A stretch of 64,000 nucleotides of DNA from Ferrimonas sp. YFM (lineage in GTDB: Bacteria; Pseudomonadota; Gammaproteobacteria; Enterobacterales; Shewanellaceae): positions 3,892,839 to 3,956,838 of the forward strand of contig NZ_AP027368.1 in NCBI RefSeq assembly GCF_030296015.1, written 5' to 3'. Within the stretch, counting starts at the first letter, position 1; every line of letters starts with the position of its first letter. The notes below the pieces were generated by a model. That model was not told where the DNA came from. It worked only from the letters and a program-made list of their open reading frames with translations, and made no database searches. This document shows positions 4,089 through 42,999 of this stretch, in pieces. The position numbers and the translations under genes are program-made.

Positions 4089-5131
4089 TGACCGTAACGC
4101 ACCAGGGCATGCCATAACCACTTCAGCCCCTGACGGACCAACGACTCATCCCCAAGATCCCGCCACAGCTGCGGGTCATGGTGCAGCCGACAGGCCGCCT
4201 GGCCCAGGGTAGAGGCGTTTAACAGGCCATCGACGGCCACCAGCCGGCCAAACTCAGGCAACAACGGACCCCGAAAATCATCGGCAAGCTCCGACGCCAT
4301 CAACCTGGGGCCAGCGCGCCAGGCAAGGGAAAAACCGCACTCGGTGGCCAGTCGTTGCATCCGCGCTCCAGTCTCGGTGCCCAGGTAGCTGTCGTCGGCC
4401 ACCAACGCCTGAACGTCTCTGTCCAGCCGCACCTCACCATGAACCTGAGCCTCAATGTAGTGGTCCAGACTGCGCACCGCGGGTTGCTCAAGCTGCCACT
4501 TGAGAGGCTGGGACAGAGCCATCGTCAGATGATCCAGCAGACGGGGCGGCCGAGCTGGCCACCCCAGGGCGCTGTCGCTTTCGAAGCTCTCCTCCAGCAT
4601 GGCCGCCAGCACGTCGTCCACCAGATTCAGGGTGCCGCGCTCCAGCGGCGAGCGGTAGGAGTCCCGGTAGCTGAAACTGCAGCGGGCCAGCACCGCAGGC
4701 TTAAGTCGGAAATAGCAGCTGCCAAACCTGGGACTGGGGCCATCGGCCCCACGCACCAGGTCCAGGGCGCCATACTTGGGCCGCTCACCGCCCTCTCGGC
4801 AGTGGTGACCGAACAGGGCATTTTCCCAGTTGTCCCTTGGCCCACCGGGTTCAGGGGACAGGTGGCCGTTGGACAGGCCGGTGTCGAACTGACTGAGGTA
4901 ACATCCACGCTGCGCCATCCCGGCGATCACCGTCTGCCCTTGGGGATCGGGACGATCCGGATGAAAATGCAGCGCGACGGCCCCCTGCAAACGGAGCCGC
5001 TCTTTTAGCCGCTCCACCTCATCAGGCAGTCGATTGCTCATGGCCAGCACCTGGGCGATGCGGTCCCTTGCCTGGGCCTGCCTGGGCCTGGCATGGCGCT
5101 CAACCGCCTCCAACGCGGGGTAGGCTTCCAT
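4052..5131 (-). CDS. DUF3626 domain-containing protein
   Basis: The 359-residue protein matches what I recall of the DUF3626 family: an N-terminal helical stretch, ALHFHPDR near residue 55, then SQFDTGLSNGHLSPEPGG and ERPKYGALDL. The histidine- and aspartate-rich core (HFHPDR, FGHHCREGGE) hints at a metal-binding or enzymatic site, but no biochemical role is established to my knowledge. There is no signal peptide or membrane segment. The ATG at 5131 follows a GGAGAACC ribosome-binding site. The 3' end overlaps the convergent SDR gene by 37 bp. The gene appears to be monocistronic. Confidence 0.8.
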   Translation of the reverse strand: MEAYPALEAVERHARPRQAQARDRIAQVLAMSNRLPDEVERLKERLRLQGAVALHFHPDRPDPQGQTVIAGMAQRGCYLSQFDTGLSNGHLSPEPGGPRDNWENALFGHHCREGGERPKYGALDLVRGADGPSPRFGSCYFRLKPAVLARCSFSYRDSYRSPLERGTLNLVDDVLAAMLEESFESDSALGWPARPPRLLDHLTMALSQPLKWQLEQPAVRSLDHYIEAQVHGEVRLDRDVQALVADDSYLGTETGARMQRLATECGFSLAWRAGPRLMASELADDFRGPLLPEFGRLVAVDGLLNASTLGQAACRLHHDPQLWRDLGDESLVRQGLKWLWHALVRYGHYQGMVSPRQSR

Positions 5132-35949: not shown

Positions 35950-36771
35950 ATGACTGACAAGATCATGGCCGCACCGCCCAAGCGGGAGAGCAGCCGCACA
36001 GCAAGACAGCAAGCCGTGACCCTGGCGCGGCGAATCGGCCTGACCGGCAATGATGCAGAAACCGCCGGCGCCCTGGCCCAGCGTACCGAAATCCGACTGA
36101 AAAACTGGCAGGAGCAACGTCAGCAGAACCTGGAAGCCGTGGTGAAGCAAGCCATAGGCCTGGCGGGCAATGCGGTGAGTAACAAAGAGTTGGATCCGGA
36201 CTGGCAGTTCCAGTTTTGCCAGATGGCGGAGCAGATCCACAACAGCAGCATGCAGAAGCTTTGGGCTCAGATTCTGGCCACCGAGCTGAGTCTGCCCGGC
36301 AGCTTCGGCCTGAGAACCCTGGAAACTCTGAAAGGAATGACCCAGAGAGAAGCGATGCAGTTCGCCCGGACCGTGGCGATCTCCTGCCAGCTTAATGGCG
36401 ACCCCAGCCACAAGGTTGTGCTGGGCTATCGCCGGGAAGCAGGCTTCGGCGGCTTCAGCTCCGCTCGCCAGGAGACAATGAACCTCTCCGGCCAGGGGCT
36501 GCCCTACTCGACAGTGCTGACCCTGAGAGATCTCGGTTTGCTGTTTGCCACCGAACTGGAAACCGGCCCCCTTCCCGCCAAGCAGCCCATGCTGATCCGC
36601 TGTCAGGGCCATACCATGAAGTTTGTGCCCAAAAGCGCCCGCCTCAGGCTGAGGTATTACCGCTTCACTCAGGTAGGGGATGAGCTGGCCCGGCTGATCA
36701 CCGAGCCCGCCAATGAAGAGTACTGCGAATCGCTAACCAAACTGCTGCTGGACGATTTCCTGCCCCAGTAG
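35950..36771 (+). CDS. TIGR03899-family conserved protein
   Basis: A cytoplasmic protein of 273 residues matching my recollection of the TIGR03899 family of Vibrio and Shewanella: KRTEIRLKNWQEQ-like N-terminal helix, DPDWQFQFCQMAEQIHNSSMQ, LWAQILATELSLPGSFGLRTL and a basic C-terminal part. The function is unknown. ATG at 35950 begins 2 bp after the MFS stop TGAGCC region. Its last 39 bp overlap the convergent cobA gene, so any terminator lies inside cobA. Confidence 0.75.
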   Translation: MTDKIMAAPPKRESSRTARQQAVTLARRIGLTGNDAETAGALAQRTEIRLKNWQEQRQQNLEAVVKQAIGLAGNAVSNKELDPDWQFQFCQMAEQIHNSSMQKLWAQILATELSLPGSFGLRTLETLKGMTQREAMQFARTVAISCQLNGDPSHKVVLGYRREAGFGGFSSARQETMNLSGQGLPYSTVLTLRDLGLLFATELETGPLPAKQPMLIRCQGHTMKFVPKSARLRLRYYRFTQVGDELARLITEPANEEYCESLTKLLLDDFLPQ

Positions 36772-37539
36772 TTCGGCGCTGAACCAATCCAGCGAGTGGT
36801 GCAGAGACACCACATCACCGACGATCAACGCCGCCGGCGTCTGCACGCGAGGATCGGTAGCCATCTGTTCCAGTTCGGCGAGGCGGCCTGTCACCACCGT
36901 CTGCTGAGGCTGGCTGGCGCGGCTGACAATGGCCACCGGGGTGTCACCAGCCAGGCCGCCCTCCATCAACCCATGTGCTATGGTCCCGGCCCGGGCCACG
37001 CCCATGTAGATCACCAGAGTGTGGTGGCTGAGCGCCAGCTTATGCCAGTCGGAGATGGGCTCGCCGCCCATGCCATGACCAGTGACAAAGGTGACCCCGC
37101 GAGACAGGGTCCTGTGGGTCAGGGGGATGGCGCCATAGGAGGCGCAGGCAGTGGCGGCGGTAACACCGGGCACCACCTCATAGTCGATGCCCGCCTCTCG
37201 CAAGGCCTGCATCTCTTCGCCGCCTCGGCCAAACATCAGAGGATCGCCCCCTTTCAACCGCACCACGGAGCGGTCCCCTGAGGCGGCCTTGGCCACCAGC
37301 AATCGATTGATCTCCTCCTGAGACATGGAGTGACGCCCGCAGCGCTTACCGACGGCAATGCACTCCGCATCCGCATTGATCAGTGCCAGGATAGACTCAC
37401 TTACCAGGGCATCGTAAAGCACCACGTCGGCCCCTTGAATGGCGCGCAGTGCCTTGACGGTCAACAGTTCAGGATCGCCGGGGCCAGCGCCCACTATGGC
37501 CACCCTGCCGGTACGATTGGGTAAAGTTATCAGGCTCAC
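36733..37539 (-). CDS. cobA: Uroporphyrinogen-III C-methyltransferase
   Basis: A SUMT of 268 residues that methylates uroporphyrinogen III twice with SAM to precorrin-2. It has VAIVGAGPGDPELLTVKA (N-terminal loop), VRLKGGDPLMFGRGGEE, VVPGVTAA and PLTHR. It is the monofunctional form, without the CysG dehydrogenase/chelatase part. Precorrin-2 leads to siroheme, needed by the sulfite reductase CysI encoded 5.5 kb away on the same strand. An AT-rich 225-bp gap precedes it. The last 39 bp overlap the TIGR03899 gene. Confidence 0.95.
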   Translation of the reverse strand: MSLITLPNRTGRVAIVGAGPGDPELLTVKALRAIQGADVVLYDALVSESILALINADAECIAVGKRCGRHSMSQEEINRLLVAKAASGDRSVVRLKGGDPLMFGRGGEEMQALREAGIDYEVVPGVTAATACASYGAIPLTHRTLSRGVTFVTGHGMGGEPISDWHKLALSHHTLVIYMGVARAGTIAHGLMEGGLAGDTPVAIVSRASQPQQTVVTGRLAELEQMATDPRVQTPAALIVGDVVSLHHSLDWFSAELLGQEIVQQQFG

Positions 37540-37698
37540 CAGATTCCCCCTCTAGAGTATCCGAACAGCTTAGAGCCTCTTTTAATAACCACAAAGAATC
37601 AGTTTGGAACTTTTAATTCGTTTTAGAGATATCAATTTAACGGAGAAAAAACATCGGTCTGTAAAATCACCACTTAGCACAATTACCTAAAAGATCCC

Positions 37699-37726
37699 TT
37701 GCGCATCCAAAGAAAATCGCTATTAT
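37699..37726 (+). promoter_or_regulatory. tRNA-Pro promoter with GC-rich discriminator
   Basis: TTGCGC (37699-37704), 16 bp, TATTAT (37721-37726), then AGGCCCCCGTCG. The GC-rich stretch after the -10 is typical of stringently controlled stable-RNA promoters. It lies 38 bp before the tRNA. Confidence 0.7.
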
Positions 37727-37764
37727 AGGCCCCCGTCGAGTTCGGTAACCGAACGAAACGAAAT

Positions 37765-37841
<77 letters not shown>

Positions 37842-38218
37842 CATTCAAGAGCCCTGTTCGCAAGAACAGGGCTTTTCTCGTTTTAGAGCCGCTACGCGAC
37901 TCGGTCAGAGGGCTGGGCGCCCCCGTACCAATCCTCTATCACCGACCACCTTACGAAGCCCCGCTCTCTGAGCGGGGCTTTTTCGTTTTAGAGGTGCTGC
38001 GCACCTCGGGTCAGAGGCCTAGGCGGCCCCGCCCGAACTCCTCTATCACCGACCACATTCAAGAGCCCTGTTCGCAAGAACAGGGCTTTTCTCGTTTTAG
38101 AGCCGCTACGCGACTCGGTCAGAGGGCTGGGCGCCCCCGCCTGCGCGGCCCGGAACAATCCCTATCACCGACCACCTTACGAAGCCCTGCTCTCTGAGCG
38201 GGGCTTTTTCGTATCTGA
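37842..38218 (+). repeat. Tandem array of tRNA-Pro 3'-end repeats (rtT-like)
   Basis: Four units follow the tRNA without a gap: A1 37842-37948 (107 nt), B1 37949-38055 (107), A2 38056-38174 (119) and B2 38175-38218 (broken). A1 and A2 are identical over their first 84 nt; the start of B2 matches B1 over 39 nt with one change. Each whole unit has a terminator-like hairpin, a second small hairpin, GGTCAGAGG, a GC-rich insert replacing the T loop, and CCTCTATCACCGACCA or a near copy (A2 CCCTATCACCGACCA), i.e. the tRNA T-arm strand, acceptor strand and CCA. B2 keeps CAGAGG but lacks the 3' part. The E. coli tyrT locus has comparable rtT repeats built on the tRNA-Tyr end; equivalence is inference. 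Confidence 0.9.
37850..37876 (+). terminator. First terminator hairpin of the tRNA-Pro repeat array (three more follow)
   Basis: AGCCCTGTTC (37850-37859) and GAACAGGGCT (37864-37873) with a GCAA loop, then TTT. The same hairpin recurs at 38064-38090. A different one, AAGCCCCGCT/AGCGGGGCTT, occurs at 37956-37983 and, with one G-T pair, at 38182-38209. Transcripts could therefore end at any of four points. Confidence 0.85.
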
Positions 38219-38391
38219 GGCACAACGGCGTTGTGCGCATCAGAGGCCGGTCCCCCGCTTGGGCGAAGCGTCTGACGCCCAAAGGAAGCATGAGGCAACA
38301 GACAGAAAACAGACTGAATTTCAGTTCTTTGTCGAAGAGCTATACTCTGGGTAAATCAGAGCCATACCCATCATTCAATCAAGGACAGACC

Positions 38392-38769
38392 ATGATCGAC
38401 TTTCAGGAATCCTCCGTCTTTAAGCTCAAGCCCATAGAGATCGCCGACGCCAGAGAAGACTTTCACAAGTTCATCATCGAAGGCGAGTCCATCTTCGCCG
38501 CCTTCAAGACCATTCGCGATCAGGTGGTGTTTACCAACAAGCGCATCATTGCCGCCAATGTGCAGGGGCTGACCGGCTCCAAGGTGGACTACACCTCCCT
38601 GCCCTACAGCAAGATTCAGGCGTTTTCGGTGGAGTCCTCCGGCACCCTGGATATGGATTGTGAAATCGAGGTCTATCTCAGCGGCCTGGGAAGGGTGCGG
38701 TTCGAGATCCGAGGCTCCTTCGACCTCATCTCCTTCAATAAGTACATCAGTGAGTGCATCCTCAGCTGA
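38392..38769 (+). CDS. PH domain-containing protein
   Basis: A 125-residue cytoplasmic protein of the bacterial PH-like group (bPH_1): FIIEGESIFAAFKTIRDQVVFTNKRIIAANVQGLTGSKVDY followed by the strand-rich IQAFSVESSGTLDMDCEIEVYL and a C-terminal helix. The first motif is cited in parts: FIIEGESIFAAFKTIRDQ, VVFTNKRIIAAN. The function is unknown. ATG at 38392 follows AAGGACAG; an open frame from 38233 starts within the repeat array and was not used. It stands alone. Confidence 0.82.
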   Translation: MIDFQESSVFKLKPIEIADAREDFHKFIIEGESIFAAFKTIRDQVVFTNKRIIAANVQGLTGSKVDYTSLPYSKIQAFSVESSGTLDMDCEIEVYLSGLGRVRFEIRGSFDLISFNKYISECILS

Positions 38770-38808
38770 ACAGGCCGTCCCCACCTTCAGAGCCACATCG
38801 GCTTGAGT

Positions 38809-38845
38809 CGGGAGCTTCGCTATTACAGCGAAGCTCCCGTCGTTT
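38809..38845 (+). terminator. Perfect 13-bp hairpin after the PH-domain gene
   Basis: CGGGAGCTTCGCT (38809-38821) and AGCGAAGCTCCCG (38827-38839) pair perfectly around ATTAC. Only TCGTTT follows, so it may end or stabilise the transcript. Confidence 0.6.
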
Positions 38846-38962
38846 CCAGGCTTTGGAAACTCCCAGATGCGCGGCTCAGCAGAGCCCAAACCGGGCAACG
38901 CTGAAAAGACGTACTAATGTTTAATGGTTTGATTCCACACTCAGTCATCGGGAAAAACCATC

Positions 38963-40219
38963 ATGAAGCGCCTCTACCTTGCATTCTCTGTCGTCATCTC
39001 TGCGCTCTTAGCCATTGTCTCCTACCCGTCGACCGCCAGCCTGGCAGCCAAGAACTGGCCGGCGTCGGACAAGGCCAAACAGTTTGTCAAAGAGAACATC
39101 GTTATTGGCATGATGGCCAGCCCCTACGGGACCGGGTGGACCAAAAAAGAGCAGTTGCTGGAGTACTACCGTGAATCCAGAGCGGCCGGCATCACCGGCC
39201 ACGAGATCACCCTGACCGCCGCCTCCCACAACTGGGATGAACTGGTTCGACAGCACCGGGCCTTCCGGGACGCCATGGCGGAAGAGCCGGAAAACTACGT
39301 GTTCGTCAAATCCACCCGAGACATCGAAGCCGCCCACATCAAGGGGCAGACAGCGGTTATCTGGAACTCCCAGACGTCAACAATTCTGGAGGAGGATGTC
39401 TCTCGCATGGCCCTGCTCAAGGAGATGGGCATCGCCAGCATGATCCTCGCCTATAACGACCGTTTCAGGACAGGCTCCGGCTCATTGGCCGCATACAACG
39501 GCATGGACGATGGTCTCACCGATTGGGGACGGACGGTGATCGACGCCATGGTCCGTTATGGCACCATCCTGGATCTCAGCCACACAGGTCAGAAGACCGC
39601 CATGGACGCCATGGATTATATGGATGAACACTACCCAGGGGTCCCCTACGTCTTCACCCACTCCATTCCCGCAGGCCTGTACAAAACTCAGCCTGACGCT
39701 TCCCCCAAGGGTTGCTACCGGAACATCTCCGATGAGGAAGCCAGGCGAGTGCTCAAGGCTGGCGGCTACGTCTCTCCCACCTTTACCGAATGGATGATGG
39801 ACGGCATCTGGCCAGATGACATCACTCCCTCTCAGGCTGCCGACATGATCGATTATTACGTCAAGCTTCTGGGGGAGGACCATGTTGGGCTGGCGACAGA
39901 CGATATGTTCGATGTCAGCCTGGTGGTCGACTTCGCCAAGAAGAATGCCACCATGTATAACGACGGCGGCTACATGATCACCGCCTTCGAGCGTGGTGCC
40001 GATGACTCTGCCATGCTGTCCCGGATTCTGCCGGCCATCACCGATGAGCTATGGAAGCGCGGCTACACCGATGAGCAGCTAATCAAGATCTACGGCGCCA
40101 ACAAGATGAGAGTCTTTCAGCAGGTCTGGGAGGGCGCAGCGCCCGGACAGTGGGGTAAAGAGTACCCTCAGCGCGTCAAACTTCGGGAAGCCTTTATGAA
40201 GCAGTTCGGCACCAGATAG
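38963..40219 (+). CDS. Exported membrane dipeptidase (M19 family)
   Basis: The 418-residue protein begins with a signal peptide ([20 protein letters not shown]) and shows renal-dipeptidase-type features: [24 protein letters not shown] (metal-binding H), [13 protein letters not shown] and [16 protein letters not shown]19 enzymes are zinc hydrolases acting on dipeptides, including L-D types. The usual H-x-D near the N-terminus is not obvious ([13 protein letters not shown] is the nearest), so the metal site may differ. It stands alone and is convergent with the AraC-type gene, with a 38-bp gap. Confidence 0.82.
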
Positions 40220-40257
40220 CCGAAAAGTTTGATCGGCCCCCAGCCAACCCGGGGCAC

Positions 40258-41154
40258 TCACCCCTCCCCCTGGCGCCTCGTCTGGCCAGGGGGTTCCCCC
40301 ATCAGGCTGCGATACGCCTTGCGAAACGCCACCTCCGACTGATAACCGCACGCCTCGGCGATGTCCAGCATGGAGCGCTCTGTGGTAAGCAGCAGCTCCC
40401 GGGCACGTTGCATCCGCCAAAGAGTGAGGTACTTCATCGGCGTCTGCCCCACCAACTGGTGAAAGCGCTCGGCGAAACTGGTGCGTCCCATGGCGGCGGC
40501 TTGCGCCAGGGTCATCAGAGACCATTGGGCTTCGGGCCGAGTGTGGATGGCATCCAGGGCCCGGCTGATGCGGCGGTCGAACAGGGCCGCCAGCAGGCCG
40601 GTTTCCAACCCCTTGGCAATCTGCAACCTGAGTACCTGGATGAACAGCAGGTAACACAGCTGATTCACCACCGCATAACTGCCCGGCTCGGAGAGCTCCA
40701 GCTCCGCCACCATCAACTGAATCAGGGTGCGGATGTTGGGGTGCCGCCCCTGCTCCCCCAGTTCCAGCACTATCACCTGAGGCAGACCATCCAGCAATGG
40801 CGAGCTCCCCAGGTTATCGAAGTCGAAGAAGCCGCACAGAAGATTGGTCGCCGGTCCATCGGACTCGCTGCCGGGGTCATTCAGGCGGGTCTCGGCATCG
40901 GGTTGAGGCTCACTGGAGACCAGGTGTTTGACATCATGGGGAAACAGCACCAGGTCACCGGCTCTGAGCAGCCTGGGCTCGCAGCCCTCGATATGGAGCC
41001 ACCCCTGGCCGGACCCCAGCATATGAAAAGGGATTCTTCGCTGGCCCGATGTATCCACCGCCCAGTGGCCACAGAAGTCGGCGTGGACATAGACCTCCGC
41101 CCGCAGCTTGAGGCTGCGCAGCAGTTCACTCAATGAGTCCTGGTTCTTTAACAT
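40258..41154 (-). CDS. AraC-family transcriptional regulator
   Basis: The 298-residue protein has an N-terminal cupin-like ligand domain (WLHIEGCEPRLLRAGDLVLF) and a C-terminal double helix-turn-helix: SLMTLAQAAAMGRTSFAERF and SMLDIAEACGYQSEVAFRKAY, separated by TPMKYLTLWRM. It is divergent from the cupredoxin-like gene at 41279 with 124 bp between, so control of that gene is likely. The inducer is unknown. Confidence 0.9.
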   Translation of the reverse strand: MLKNQDSLSELLRSLKLRAEVYVHADFCGHWAVDTSGQRRIPFHMLGSGQGWLHIEGCEPRLLRAGDLVLFPHDVKHLVSSEPQPDAETRLNDPGSESDGPATNLLCGFFDFDNLGSSPLLDGLPQVIVLELGEQGRHPNIRTLIQLMVAELELSEPGSYAVVNQLCYLLFIQVLRLQIAKGLETGLLAALFDRRISRALDAIHTRPEAQWSLMTLAQAAAMGRTSFAERFHQLVGQTPMKYLTLWRMQRARELLLTTERSMLDIAEACGYQSEVAFRKAYRSLMGEPPGQTRRQGEG

Positions 41155-41278
41155 GGCCTTCCGTACTCGTGGTTATATTTTGCGGACTAATAGGCATTAT
41201 TAATACACCACTATCGAACTATAGTCTCTCTCGAACGGAAACAAATCTATCTGATACCCCTGACGAGAGGACGACTCA

Positions 41279-41668
41279 ATGACCATCTTCAACATCCTGA
41301 AACGCGCCACCGCAGTCCTGGCCATCGCCTTCGCCGCCGTGGCCGGTGTGCAGGCGGACACCCCCACCACCCGGGCCGACGGCGTAACTGTGATTCACCT
41401 GGATGAGTACAACGGCTACTTCTCTGCCAAAGAGACCGTGGCAGGCCTGAAAGCGGGTGAGTACGAGTTCGTGATCACCAACAAGGCGGACAAGCTGGTG
41501 GGCTTCCAGATCCAGAGTCTGGCCGATCGCGAGACCCTGGACATGTTCCCCCTGGAGCCCGGCGAAACCCGCACCAGCCGAGTCACCGTGGGTGAAGATG
41601 GCGTGCGTTTTCGCTGCCCCATCAACCCCACGCCCTGGTATGACCTGGACGTAATCAAGAAGGGTTAA
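41279..41668 (+). CDS. Periplasmic cupredoxin-like protein
   Basis: A 129-residue exported protein: signal peptide to about A26 (ILKRATAVLAIAFAAVAGVQ...), then a beta-rich mature part with LKAGEYEFVITNKADKLVGF, LEPGETRTSRVTVGEDGVRF and RCPINPTPWYDLDV. This layout (strand, N-K-A-D, PGE, C-P) resembles single-domain cupredoxin-like proteins. A full set of copper ligands is not visible: one cysteine, one histidine (VIHLDE). Metal binding is therefore unproven. It is divergent from an AraC regulator and ends at a strong terminator. Confidence 0.62.
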   Translation: MTIFNILKRATAVLAIAFAAVAGVQADTPTTRADGVTVIHLDEYNGYFSAKETVAGLKAGEYEFVITNKADKLVGFQIQSLADRETLDMFPLEPGETRTSRVTVGEDGVRFRCPINPTPWYDLDVIKKG

Positions 41669-41698
41669 TCCCAGTTCCCTGTTCTCATCCCTCCTTTT

Positions 41699-41739
41699 GC
41701 AGCCCGGTGGTTATAAGCTTCCTTCCGGGCTGCTTTTTT
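41699..41739 (+). terminator. Terminator after the cupredoxin-like gene
   Basis: GCAGCCCGG (41699-41707) and CCGGGCTGC (41725-41733) pair with a 17-nt loop, followed by six T. Confidence 0.85.
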
Positions 41740-41861
41740 GTGCCTGCTTCCCTGCACTCGCACCTGCCAACAAGCGTTTCATAAATAAAGAAAAAAGTAT
41801 AAATTGAGCCATCACGCCAGGCGTGCAGGCAACGCCGGCGCTCCCCAAAAAGCCACGTTGG

Positions 41862-42200
41862 ATGACCAAGATGTACAGCAGACCCAATTACGATGATTAC
41901 ACCCTGGCAGAGTTGTTCGATGCACTCCACAGCGTAGATAAGGAGGAGTATCCGGAGAATCACCAGGGGATCAAAGACGCACTGGCACGGCGCCAGGGCA
42001 GCGAGTTCAAATGCGTAAAGTGCGGATTCGGGGGCTATCAGACATCGGATATCTATGTGTCACTGAGCCGGGAGGAGAGCATCATGGACGTTGAGTCCGG
42101 CAAGTTCTTTTCGGTCAGTTGCATCGAGTGCGGCTACACCGAGTTTTACCGGCGACAAGCCAGCATTGCCGGAGCGATGATGGATCTGTTCATACGCTAG
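41862..42200 (+). CDS. Zinc-ribbon protein
   Basis: A 112-residue protein with an N-terminal helix DYTLAELFDALHSVDKEEYP and a C-terminal zinc ribbon: CVKCG near residue 55 and CIECGYTEFYRR near 92, the CxxCG pair of DUF2082-like ribbons. The function is unknown; nucleic-acid or protein binding is possible. The start is uncertain: ATG at 41862, ATG at 41871 or GTG at 41823, none with a strong ribosome-binding site. A terminator follows, shared with cysH. Confidence 0.72.
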   Translation: MTKMYSRPNYDDYTLAELFDALHSVDKEEYPENHQGIKDALARRQGSEFKCVKCGFGGYQTSDIYVSLSREESIMDVESGKFFSVSCIECGYTEFYRRQASIAGAMMDLFIR

Positions 42201-42205
42201 CAGAG

Positions 42206-42240
42206 AAAACAGAGGCTCCCGAAGGAGCCTCTGTTTTTTT
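42206..42240. terminator. Bidirectional terminator between zinc-ribbon gene and cysH
   Basis: CAGAGGCTCC (42210-42219) and GGAGCCTCTG (42224-42233) with CGAA loop, seven T after and AAAA before. Confidence 0.9.
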
Positions 42241-42258
42241 GGGATCCGAGATCACCGG

Positions 42259-42999
42259 CTAGATGTCGTAGTGGAGTCCGCACTCCCGACGGAAACCGGA
42301 GAAGCGGCTGTCCTCTTCGCTCATCCCCAGCTCCATGGGGCGGCTGGTGTGGATGTCCCCCACCGAGGCGTAACCCTGATGCCACAGAGGGTGGTAAGGC
42401 AGGCCATGCTCCTCCAGGTAGTAGTGCACATCCTTGTTGGTCCAATCCAGAATGGGCAACAGCTTGAACCGGCCTGAGCGGATCTCCAGAAACGGCAGAT
42501 CTGCTCTGGAGCTTGCCTGCTGACGGCGCAAGCCAGCAAACCAGGTGCCCACATTCAGCTCGTTGAGCGCCCGCTGCATCGGCTCCACCTTGTTGAGGCG
42601 GTTGTACTGATTGAGTCCCTCCTGCCCCTGCTCCCACAGCTGGCCAAAACGGGCCTCCTGCCAGGCCGGGTTCATCTCTGAGCGGTACACCTTCAGATTC
42701 AGCTTCAGCTTGTCGGTGAGCTCGTCGATAAAGCGGTAGGTCTCAGGAAACAGATAGCCGGTGTCGGTGAGCACCACGGGAATCTCGGGCTTGGCCTGGG
42801 TCACCAGGTGCAGCATCACCGCCCCCTGAATGCCGAAACTGGAGGAGAGGATCGCCTCACCGGGCAGGTGCTCCAAGCCCCAGGCCACCCGCTCCTGGGC
42901 GCTCAGCGCCGCCAGGGTGTCATTGGCCCGGGCCAGCCAAGCCTGATGCGCCTCTAACTCTGGGTTGGCCGCCACGGCGGCCAGATCGATGTCAGCCAT
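42259..42999 (-). CDS. cysH: Phosphoadenosine phosphosulfate reductase
   Basis: CysH reduces PAPS to sulfite with thioredoxin. The 246-residue protein has the PP-loop-like [41 protein letters not shown] and the catalytic C-terminal ECGLH. The absence of extra cysteine pairs marks the PAPS-type (not APS-type) enzyme. It overlaps the cysI end by 8 bp and is the last gene of the cysJIH operon. Confidence 0.96.

Follow-up and report, generated by a model that had tools for sequence, protein, structure and literature searches.

A tandem array of T-loop-interrupted tRNA 3'-half repeats behind tRNA-Pro(UGG) in Ferrimonas sp. YFM

Organization of the array behind tRNA-Pro(UGG)

The analyzed window, a stretch of 64 kb from the genome of Ferrimonas sp. 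YFM, contains an intact tRNA-Pro gene (UGG; anticodon TGG) at 37765..37841 on the plus strand, identified by both ARAGORN and Rfam (RF00005). Six neighboring genes between 36733 and 42999 were assigned by Pfam to a methylase, a bPH protein, an M19 peptidase, an AraC-type protein and a PAPS reductase, with one gene lacking a match. The 3' end of the tRNA, CTATCACCGACCA, is the source of a tandem repeat. Its copies end at 37841, 37948, 38055 and 38174, which corresponds to start-to-start spacings of 107, 107 and 119 nt, and they are followed by a fourth unit without a tail. The original prediction had placed such an array here, with the same unit lengths, an A, B, A, B order and 84 identical unit nucleotides in the two A copies, and repeat comparison confirmed all of this. 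Together with 17 nt of the tRNA, the identity of A1 and A2 extends over 101 nt (37825-37925 and 38039-38139). Because of this identity, the recent duplication suggested at that time holds for these two units.

All features of the array are located on the plus strand. Unit A1 (37842..37948, 107 nt) begins behind the tRNA with the intrinsic terminator A (37847..37884), recognized by its stem and T run and by a terminator scan. It is followed by a 17-nt hairpin (37886..37902; GAGCCGC-TAC-GCGACTC) which takes the place of the anticodon arm, with 6 of 7 possible pairs and the loop TAC. Alignment to tRNA-Pro then reveals the variable region (GGTC), the 5' strand of the T stem (AGAGG, 37907-37911) and a 14-nt insert in the T arm, GCTGGGCGCCCCCG (37912..37925), behind which TACCAAT replaces the T loop. 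The unit ends with a second copy of the tRNA-Pro 3' part (37933..37948), composed of the 3' T-stem strand (CCTCT) and the 3' acceptor strand with CCA (ATCACCG-ACCA). Unit B1 (37949..38055, 107 nt) has the same plan with terminator B (37955..37989; stem, T run and scan), a hairpin with 7 of 7 pairs and the loop TGC (37991..38007; GAGGTGC-TGC-GCACCTC) and the insert CCTAGGCGGCCCCG (38018..38031), which carries C-G for G-C at the covarying pair 0-8 described below.

Unit A2 (38056..38174, 119 nt) contains a second copy of terminator A (38061..38098; stem, T run and scan) and a hairpin identical to that of A1 (38100..38116). It is longer than A1 and B1 because its T-arm insert is doubled (38126..38154), giving an interrupted T loop of 34 nt by flank-anchored extraction. 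The fourth unit, predicted to be broken, indeed retains only its front part: a second B-type terminator (38175..38218), of which the full stem is visible although the scan reports the inner part only, and a decayed stretch (38219..38255) in which the hairpin (38220-38236) is kept and the tRNA tail is gone. What the original prediction had missed is that each unit retains tRNA-Pro sequence for the variable region and the T stem, and that a GC-rich insert interrupts the T arm.

The acceptor 5' strand and the D arm are absent from the units, which therefore cannot be ordinary tRNAs; neither ARAGORN nor Rfam reports them within the 64-kb window. Each unit contains a GC stem with T run, as expected for an intrinsic terminator. 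Whole units fold better than shuffled sequences (z -4.6 for A1, -4.1 for B1 and -3.5 for A2), and these values owe much to the terminator, since the 63-nt core alone is little above shuffles (z -1.9 and -1.1). A search of the whole genome showed that the tRNA-Pro array occurs only once. Apart from it, only a 36-nt stretch matched, which resembles terminator B at 89% and is located 3' of another tRNA cluster. An assembly artefact is unlikely, because the YFM genome is a single contig and both ends of the array are present in an independent draft genome of F. futtsuensis, on two contigs which each stop inside the array.

Repeated tRNA 3' ends at other loci of the YFM genome

The genome contains 119 tRNA matches, and 40 loci with 120 ARAGORN tRNAs were searched for extra copies of the cognate tail (18 nt, up to 3 mismatches; 60 locus-by-isoacceptor pairs). 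The case had been described for tRNA-Pro only, but 13 of the 40 loci carry extra cognate tails, which belong to 12 isoacceptors: Phe, Met, Gln, Arg-ACG, Ser-GGA, Ser-TGA, Cys, Asn, Pro-GGG, Pro-TGG, Gly-GCC and Asp. In total 30 extra tails were found in the 60 pairs, compared with none on the antisense strand. Non-cognate tails amounted to 11 in 1416 pairs, and 9 of these coincide with places that already count as cognate Pro or Ser tails.

The units differ in their similarity to the tRNA-Pro(UGG) plan. A close fit was observed for Asp, Asn, the 107-nt Phe units and one Met unit. Pro-GGG units have the hairpin and different T-arm inserts, Cys units retain a genuine anticodon arm and carry a different insert, Gln units are shorter, and the Ser, Arg and longer Phe units have long hairpin-rich inserts. 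The Phe locus (637500-644500) comprises three tRNA-Phe genes spanning about 2 kb, then units with lengths of 107, 181 or 187 nt, of which the two longer kinds carry the hairpin-rich inserts. At the Gln locus (737000-742500) the units measure 78-82 nt and the T run of the terminator is fused to anticodon-loop sequence, TTTTGATCCC. Further tRNA clusters were noticed in this genome. Nine identical tandem tRNA-Lys genes, one per 111 nt, are located at 3005890-3006850, and seven tRNA-Val genes together with a Glu/Ala cluster at 1149459-1153809. The tRNA-Asn and tRNA-Pro genes at 2710768-2711018 differ from the remaining copies in the genome and may belong to a prophage.

Recurrence and distribution of the T-arm insert

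We refer to these units as T-loop-interrupted tRNA 3'-half repeats, a name coined here. The tRNA-Pro array fits this class: A1 and B1 represent the two main forms of the insert and A2 the doubled one, and in the anticodon-arm slot both A1 and B1 carry the hairpin. In the YFM genome the exact pattern GGSCTRGGCGSCCCC is found in five places, all within tRNA arrays (two Phe, three Pro). One mismatch adds 21 matches, four of which are beside Asp or Met/Asn tRNAs by coordinates; the total of 26 compares with 6 for a reversed-pattern control. A broad spread based on GGSCTRGGCGSCCCC was rejected: the pattern occurs in 28 of 295 genomes of the order, but a tRNA was present in only 4 of 30 fetched loci, and the others look like chance matches in coding DNA. 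The CTAG form of the pattern was found in 0 of 369 genomes of the class sample and also not in YFM itself, whose CTAG copies do not fit the pattern frame.

For a larger scan, 84,980 named species genomes were searched for CTGGGCGSCCCCGT with a T-loop- and tail-like frame behind it. This revealed 43 stretches, of which 15 are located 3' of an intact tRNA with fitting tail and one 3' of a tmRNA; by eye, 6 of the remaining stretches resemble a tRNA 3' end without a visible tRNA and 21 appear to be chance. The 22 positives belong to Salinivibrio (three species), Alginatibacterium, Photobacterium, Bacterioplanes, Thalassolituus, Pseudohaliea, Parahaliea, Haliea, Ferrimonas sediminicola, F. futtsuensis and seven MAG contigs which are named as gammaproteobacterial or as groups within this class. 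Insert-bearing modules were seen behind eight isoacceptors (Asn, Asp, Cys, Gly-CCC, Leu-CAA, Met, Phe and Pro-UGG). The tmRNA case is a Pseudomonadales MAG (JANQJA010000008.1), in which an insert unit at 4308-4349 lies behind a tmRNA gene on the minus strand (4412-4789).

In several tRNAs the insertion is exact. For Phe the order is GTGTCGGTGA, the insert CCTGGGCGGCCCCG and TTCGATTCC, with G53 changed to A, and for Leu it is GTGTCGG, GCTGGGCGCCCCCG and TTCGATTCC. In Bacterioplanes sanyensis a tRNA-Met of 91 nt consists of its 77-nt neighbor plus a 14-nt insertion in the T arm, and ARAGORN calls it a tRNA. Extraction anchored on the tRNA flanks only yielded 122 interrupted T loops, and 43 of these form a peak at 21-22 nt. 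This extraction is blind to the motif, yet many of the loci had originally been fetched by it, and the other lengths include overlapping anchors and chance. The displaced discriminator of a tRNA promoter was considered as the origin of the insert and rejected, GGCGSCCCCGT (up to 2 mismatches) being present in only 2 of 55 tRNA upstream regions.

A covariance model of the 42-nt stretch from T arm to CCA (R1) matched 5 of 14 genomes of the genus Ferrimonas at E 0.001 or better. At E 1e-4 it matched at least 9 of 394 genomes and at least 4 of 114 genera of the order, and in the class sample at least 1 of 369 genomes, the sole match being YFM; the order and class counts are lower bounds because 16-17 candidates were scored per genome in these two large scans. 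Within YFM, R1 gave 6 matches with an E value of 1e-4 or better, each of them at a tRNA locus, and three weak ones in addition. The presence of the module is patchy across the genus, the order and the class sample. A search of the open-access literature found no description of such units with a T-arm insert.

Base pairing in the insert, the T stem and the hairpin

In 30 aligned units, pair 0-8 of the insert is G-C in 17, C-G in 11, A-U in one and otherwise composed in one, and pair 5-11 is G-C in 28 and C-G in 2. The insert structure reached a covariation score of 0.249; it was drawn up after inspection of the alignment, 0 of 500 shuffles reached its score, and slid structures scored 0.052 or less. 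An alternative second stem, which pairs column 11 with 16 instead of 17 and was likewise designed after inspection of the alignment, scored lower (0.198 vs 0.249). In the flank-anchored set of 28 distinct 15-mers, the top pairs were (1,7), (0,8) and (5,11), part of the (1,7) signal being due to misaligned rows; the off-scheme pairs (1,13), (7,12) and (9,13) ranked next, then (-1,9) and (4,12).

The set was cleaned by dropping 8 of 47 rows (tRNA-Pro-CGG, Pro-GGG and one chance Phe match), which left 20 distinct inserts; the undropped version is noisier. In YFM, two tRNA-Pro(GGG) units have T-arm inserts outside the pairing scheme. Among the 20 distinct inserts, (0,8) is Watson-Crick in all 20, with three types, while (1,7) pairs in 19, (5,11) in 17 and (-1,9) in 14. 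The permutation p is 0.002 or less for each of these four pairs, and pair (4,12) was not significant in this set (p 0.10); the p values are to be taken as guides only, since relatedness makes the sequences non-independent. Because stem 0-8/1-7 crosses stem 5-11, the insert would form either a tiny pseudoknot or two hairpins that are alternatives to each other. The four outer pairs of the T stem are retained in 29, 27, 28 and 26 of the 30 units, the closing pair G53-C61 in 18 only.

For the hairpin, the 17 nt located 5' of the variable region were taken blindly from 36 distinct sequences. All seven pairs are formed in 10 of them, compared with a mean of 0.04 and a maximum of 1 in shuffles, and six pairs in 5 more (15 of 36 with 6-7); the remaining 21 stay below six pairs at the exact place. 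Other windows gave a similar signal only when they shared the center. In most cases the sequence of the stem differs, by eye, from the anticodon arm of its own tRNA. The loops read TNC on the tRNA strand in 17 of 38 distinct hairpins, a set with many related and some chance members, and thus GNA on the opposite strand. Loops of the GNA type form very stable DNA hairpins. The loop letters are a hint, and no proof, that the complementary strand folds. A strand assignment by G-U versus A-C pairs was dropped: the hairpins contain 11 G-U and 3 A-C among 163 pairs and the terminators 125 and 8 among 1177, and these counts decide nothing because the windows were chosen by pairing.

Conservation of the array in related genomes

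Between YFM and its sister species F. futtsuensis the sequenced part of A1 (first 78 nt) is identical at 76 of 78 positions (97%), compared with 187 of 225 (83%) in the upstream intergenic region (Fisher p 0.0007), 704 of 807 in cobA and 77 of 77 in tRNA-Pro. Terminator B2 (38175..38218) is identical at 43 of 44 positions and the tail-less fourth unit at 55 of 72. The downstream flank is better kept (intergenic 91 of 101, bPH gene 360 of 378), which makes the contrast between A1 and this side weak.

In Salinivibrio, eight Asn units at four loci were compared. Identity between loci is 0.37-0.65 in the spacer, 0.79-1.00 in the insert, 0.82-1.00 in the hairpin and 0.64-1.00 in the variable region with the 5' strand of the T stem; the tail of one unit was cut wrongly and its last identity value is void. 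An integron-like exchange of cassettes was rejected, as neighboring Salinivibrio spacers look like diverged homologues by eye. The module looks constrained and not merely like a decayed tRNA, as judged from these small samples.

The cobA-tRNA-Pro locus is orthologous in seven genomes of the genus besides YFM, and the comparison with relatives that had been proposed for the array, in which absence from them would have counted against the idea, showed partial tRNA copies there in differing forms. Behind tRNA-Pro, F. futtsuensis has a near-identical start of A1, G009 one decayed unit, G010 one unit, G006 the tail of a unit after a run of N, G007 units of about 87 nt and G001 only a terminator and a decayed stretch. 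Long alternating pseudo-tRNA units are present in G011 (C5:18405), where pseudo-tRNA-Pro copies alternate with terminators over a long run; the 14-nt insert was not seen in the part that was read. Of the orthologous loci, that of F. futtsuensis was the only one in which the bPH gene could be found on the downstream side.

Possible function of the module and alternative explanations

The array behind tRNA-Pro belongs to a patchily distributed class of repeats, tandem modules of about 63 nt derived from the 3' half of the neighboring tRNA. The recurrence of similar arrays behind several tRNA genes of scattered bacteria suggests a maintained nucleic-acid element and not leftover junk. We assign a probability of about 40% to the reading that the module is kept for its folded form, most likely as an RNA similar to rtT, since the unit resembles a structured RNA gene and rtT provides a precedent. 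In the module, a 17-nt hairpin stands for the anticodon arm, the small base-paired insert interrupts the T arm at G53/T54, and the end coincides exactly with CCA. This anatomy, the recurrence behind different tRNAs and the retention of pairs and of sequence above the level of the flanks are observed, whereas use of the folded form is inferred. Transcription may read through the terminator behind tRNA-Pro, and tRNA 3'-end processing would cut this transcript after each CCA. The released small RNAs of about 107 nt (with the 63-nt core) would bear the acceptor strand of tRNA-Pro and have no tRNA action. Because a terminator is located behind the tRNA and in each unit, an RNA of about 107 nt from the tRNA promoter could arise by read-through only. 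Units headed by a terminator are odd for something made from the tRNA promoter, which counts against the RNA reading and restricts it to read-through or another promoter. The GNA loops on the complementary strand, a sequence feature, also rather point away from an RNA of the tRNA strand.

The strongest competitor, in our view still somewhat unlikely, is that the array is neutral debris: tRNA genes and their terminators duplicate in tandem, spare copies decay and unequal crossing-over sustains the arrays, with the structure inherited from the tRNA and from palindrome-making mutation. The YFM genome is rich in tandem tRNA copies and in half-decayed tRNAs with other lesions, relatives have intermediates at the same locus, the identity of A1 and A2 and the lost tail of the fourth unit point to recent duplication and decay, and the downstream bPH gene is well kept like the array. 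However, debris hardly accounts for an insert of 14 nt that is nearly constant and occupies one and the same tRNA position across unrelated tRNAs and genera; paired changes in insert and hairpin are unexpected, and the array changes more slowly than its upstream flank. Duplication is also part of a very improbable explanation, by which only the terminators matter, as back-ups, and the tRNA parts are carried along. In the tRNA-Pro array a terminator is located directly behind the tRNA and in each unit, and the only position at which B2 differs from F. futtsuensis converts T-G to a T-A pair. Units without a visible terminator by eye (58-nt Cys, 115-nt Phe and 103-nt Asn) argue against it, as does the core, which is more alike between Salinivibrio loci than the spacer between terminator and core.

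A role of the DNA itself, which we consider unlikely, would make the module a folded single-stranded DNA or the site of a recombinase-type enzyme, which spreads between tRNA genes via the universal T loop. The 3' ends of tRNA genes would suit such an element because they are stable recombination sites. The exclusive position of the exact insert matches of YFM within tRNA arrays, the doubled inserts, the otherwise full-length Bacterioplanes tRNA-Met and the G-N-A loops on the complementary strand are consistent with this. Some units also lie at island-like edges, with a DUF6538 protein nearby in Thalassolituus and an AbiEi gene in Haliea; DUF6538 is presumably linked to integrases. However, neither the CTGG nor the CTAG form of the insert matched any stretch in the viral_contigs set (0 each), none of the six neighbors at 36733-42999 belongs by Pfam to an integrase or transposase family, so that no integrase adjoins the tRNA fragments there, and every R1 match in YFM at E 1e-4 or better is at a tRNA locus. 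The absence of matches in viral_contigs also led us to reject the insert as an attP of a phage or island, an idea which survives within the DNA-level explanation because of the island-like edges. The letters of the hairpin loop equally favor the complementary strand in an antisense explanation, in which that strand would be transcribed and the RNA of each unit would start with the antisense of the tRNA 3' end. A precedent is the antisense small RNA reported for the tRNA-Tyr locus of E. coli, which is itself predicted and plasmid-tested (PMC11623569). Against this explanation, a scan of 37500-38500 found terminators on the plus strand only. The same region contains no promoter-like site on either strand, a weak argument since the scan missed the promoter of the tRNA too. 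We regard an antisense origin as quite improbable.

Beyond the favored reading of a folded RNA, we tentatively propose, with considerable doubt, a new class of structured elements: a 63-nt mimic of the tRNA 3' half, remade for many tRNAs and tmRNA, under selection and scattered among gammaproteobacteria. In this case the common insert with its crossing pairs would disable the T loop, and E. coli rtT would be the best-known distant cousin. The module might act on its own tRNA, by regulating, titrating or guarding it, or it might be a hairpin that spreads by itself and targets the universal T loop. The array is more general and more structured than first noted, a variant of tRNA 3'-end repeats and possibly a class of its own. 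For annotation, it is relevant that ARAGORN and Rfam miss the units in the window, and that the insert-bearing Bacterioplanes copy may be counted as a functional tRNA-Met.

Comparison with known systems

Tandem tRNA arrays with pseudogenes have reportedly been described in marine gammaproteobacteria, in the tRNA-Pro/His cluster of Photobacterium. This cluster resembles YFM in the tandem amplification of tRNA genes with defective copies; the work on it is not known to describe a T-arm insert. In fungal mitochondria, mobile GC clusters and double-hairpin elements are very short hairpin-forming inserts, some of them in the loops of RNA genes. They belong to another compartment and serve as an analogy only. 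Fragments left by integrative elements also repeat the 3' part of a tRNA away from the intact gene, but the example shown in one report is a single fragment at the far end of an island of about 21 kb (PMC9897764), whereas YFM has short head-to-tail units with a common insert.

The closest known system is the repeat region of the E. coli tyrT/tyrV locus (rtT, also rttR; RF00391). To our knowledge, rtT has been described chiefly in E. coli and bacteria close to it and is seen as an oddity of a tRNA operon; its unit encodes the short protamine-like protein Tpr. In the tyrT region (NC_000913, 1286000-1288500), read in the direction of the tRNA, three units of 178 nt and one of 175 nt, the latter located between the two tRNAs, end with ATCCTTCCCCCACCACCA. 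These units interrupt the T loop of tRNA-Tyr; in those of 178 nt, AAGGTTCGA is followed by 68 nt and then by ATCCTTCCCCCACCACCA. The rtT RNA is a known product of these repeats, released from the tRNA transcript and linked to amino-acid limitation (PMC4986893).

The likeness to rtT claimed by the original prediction stands for the plan, where it is closer than first noted since the E. coli repeats interrupt the T loop as well, and not for the sequence. The Rfam rtT model gave no match at gathering score in the window, and for 37700-38400 it is also missing from the list of 24 matches with E up to 10. The insert is also unlike: it has 68 nt and follows A58 in E. coli, whereas it has 14 nt and lies at G53/T54 in YFM. 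A common origin of the E. coli and Ferrimonas inserts was not supported, the best match of the E. coli insert in the loci compared (30 bits) being equalled in 1 of 20 shuffles. The systems further differ in the tRNA and the unit length (tRNA-Tyr and 178 nt versus tRNA-Pro and 107, 107 and 119 nt), and the E. coli units lack, by eye, the GC hairpin with T run. In both, however, tandem units each close with the 3' end and CCA of the neighboring tRNA, and the T loop is interrupted inside each unit, as read for E. coli from the sequence. With a seemingly constrained module behind many tRNAs, rtT would become one example of a wider class whose role is testable in several species.
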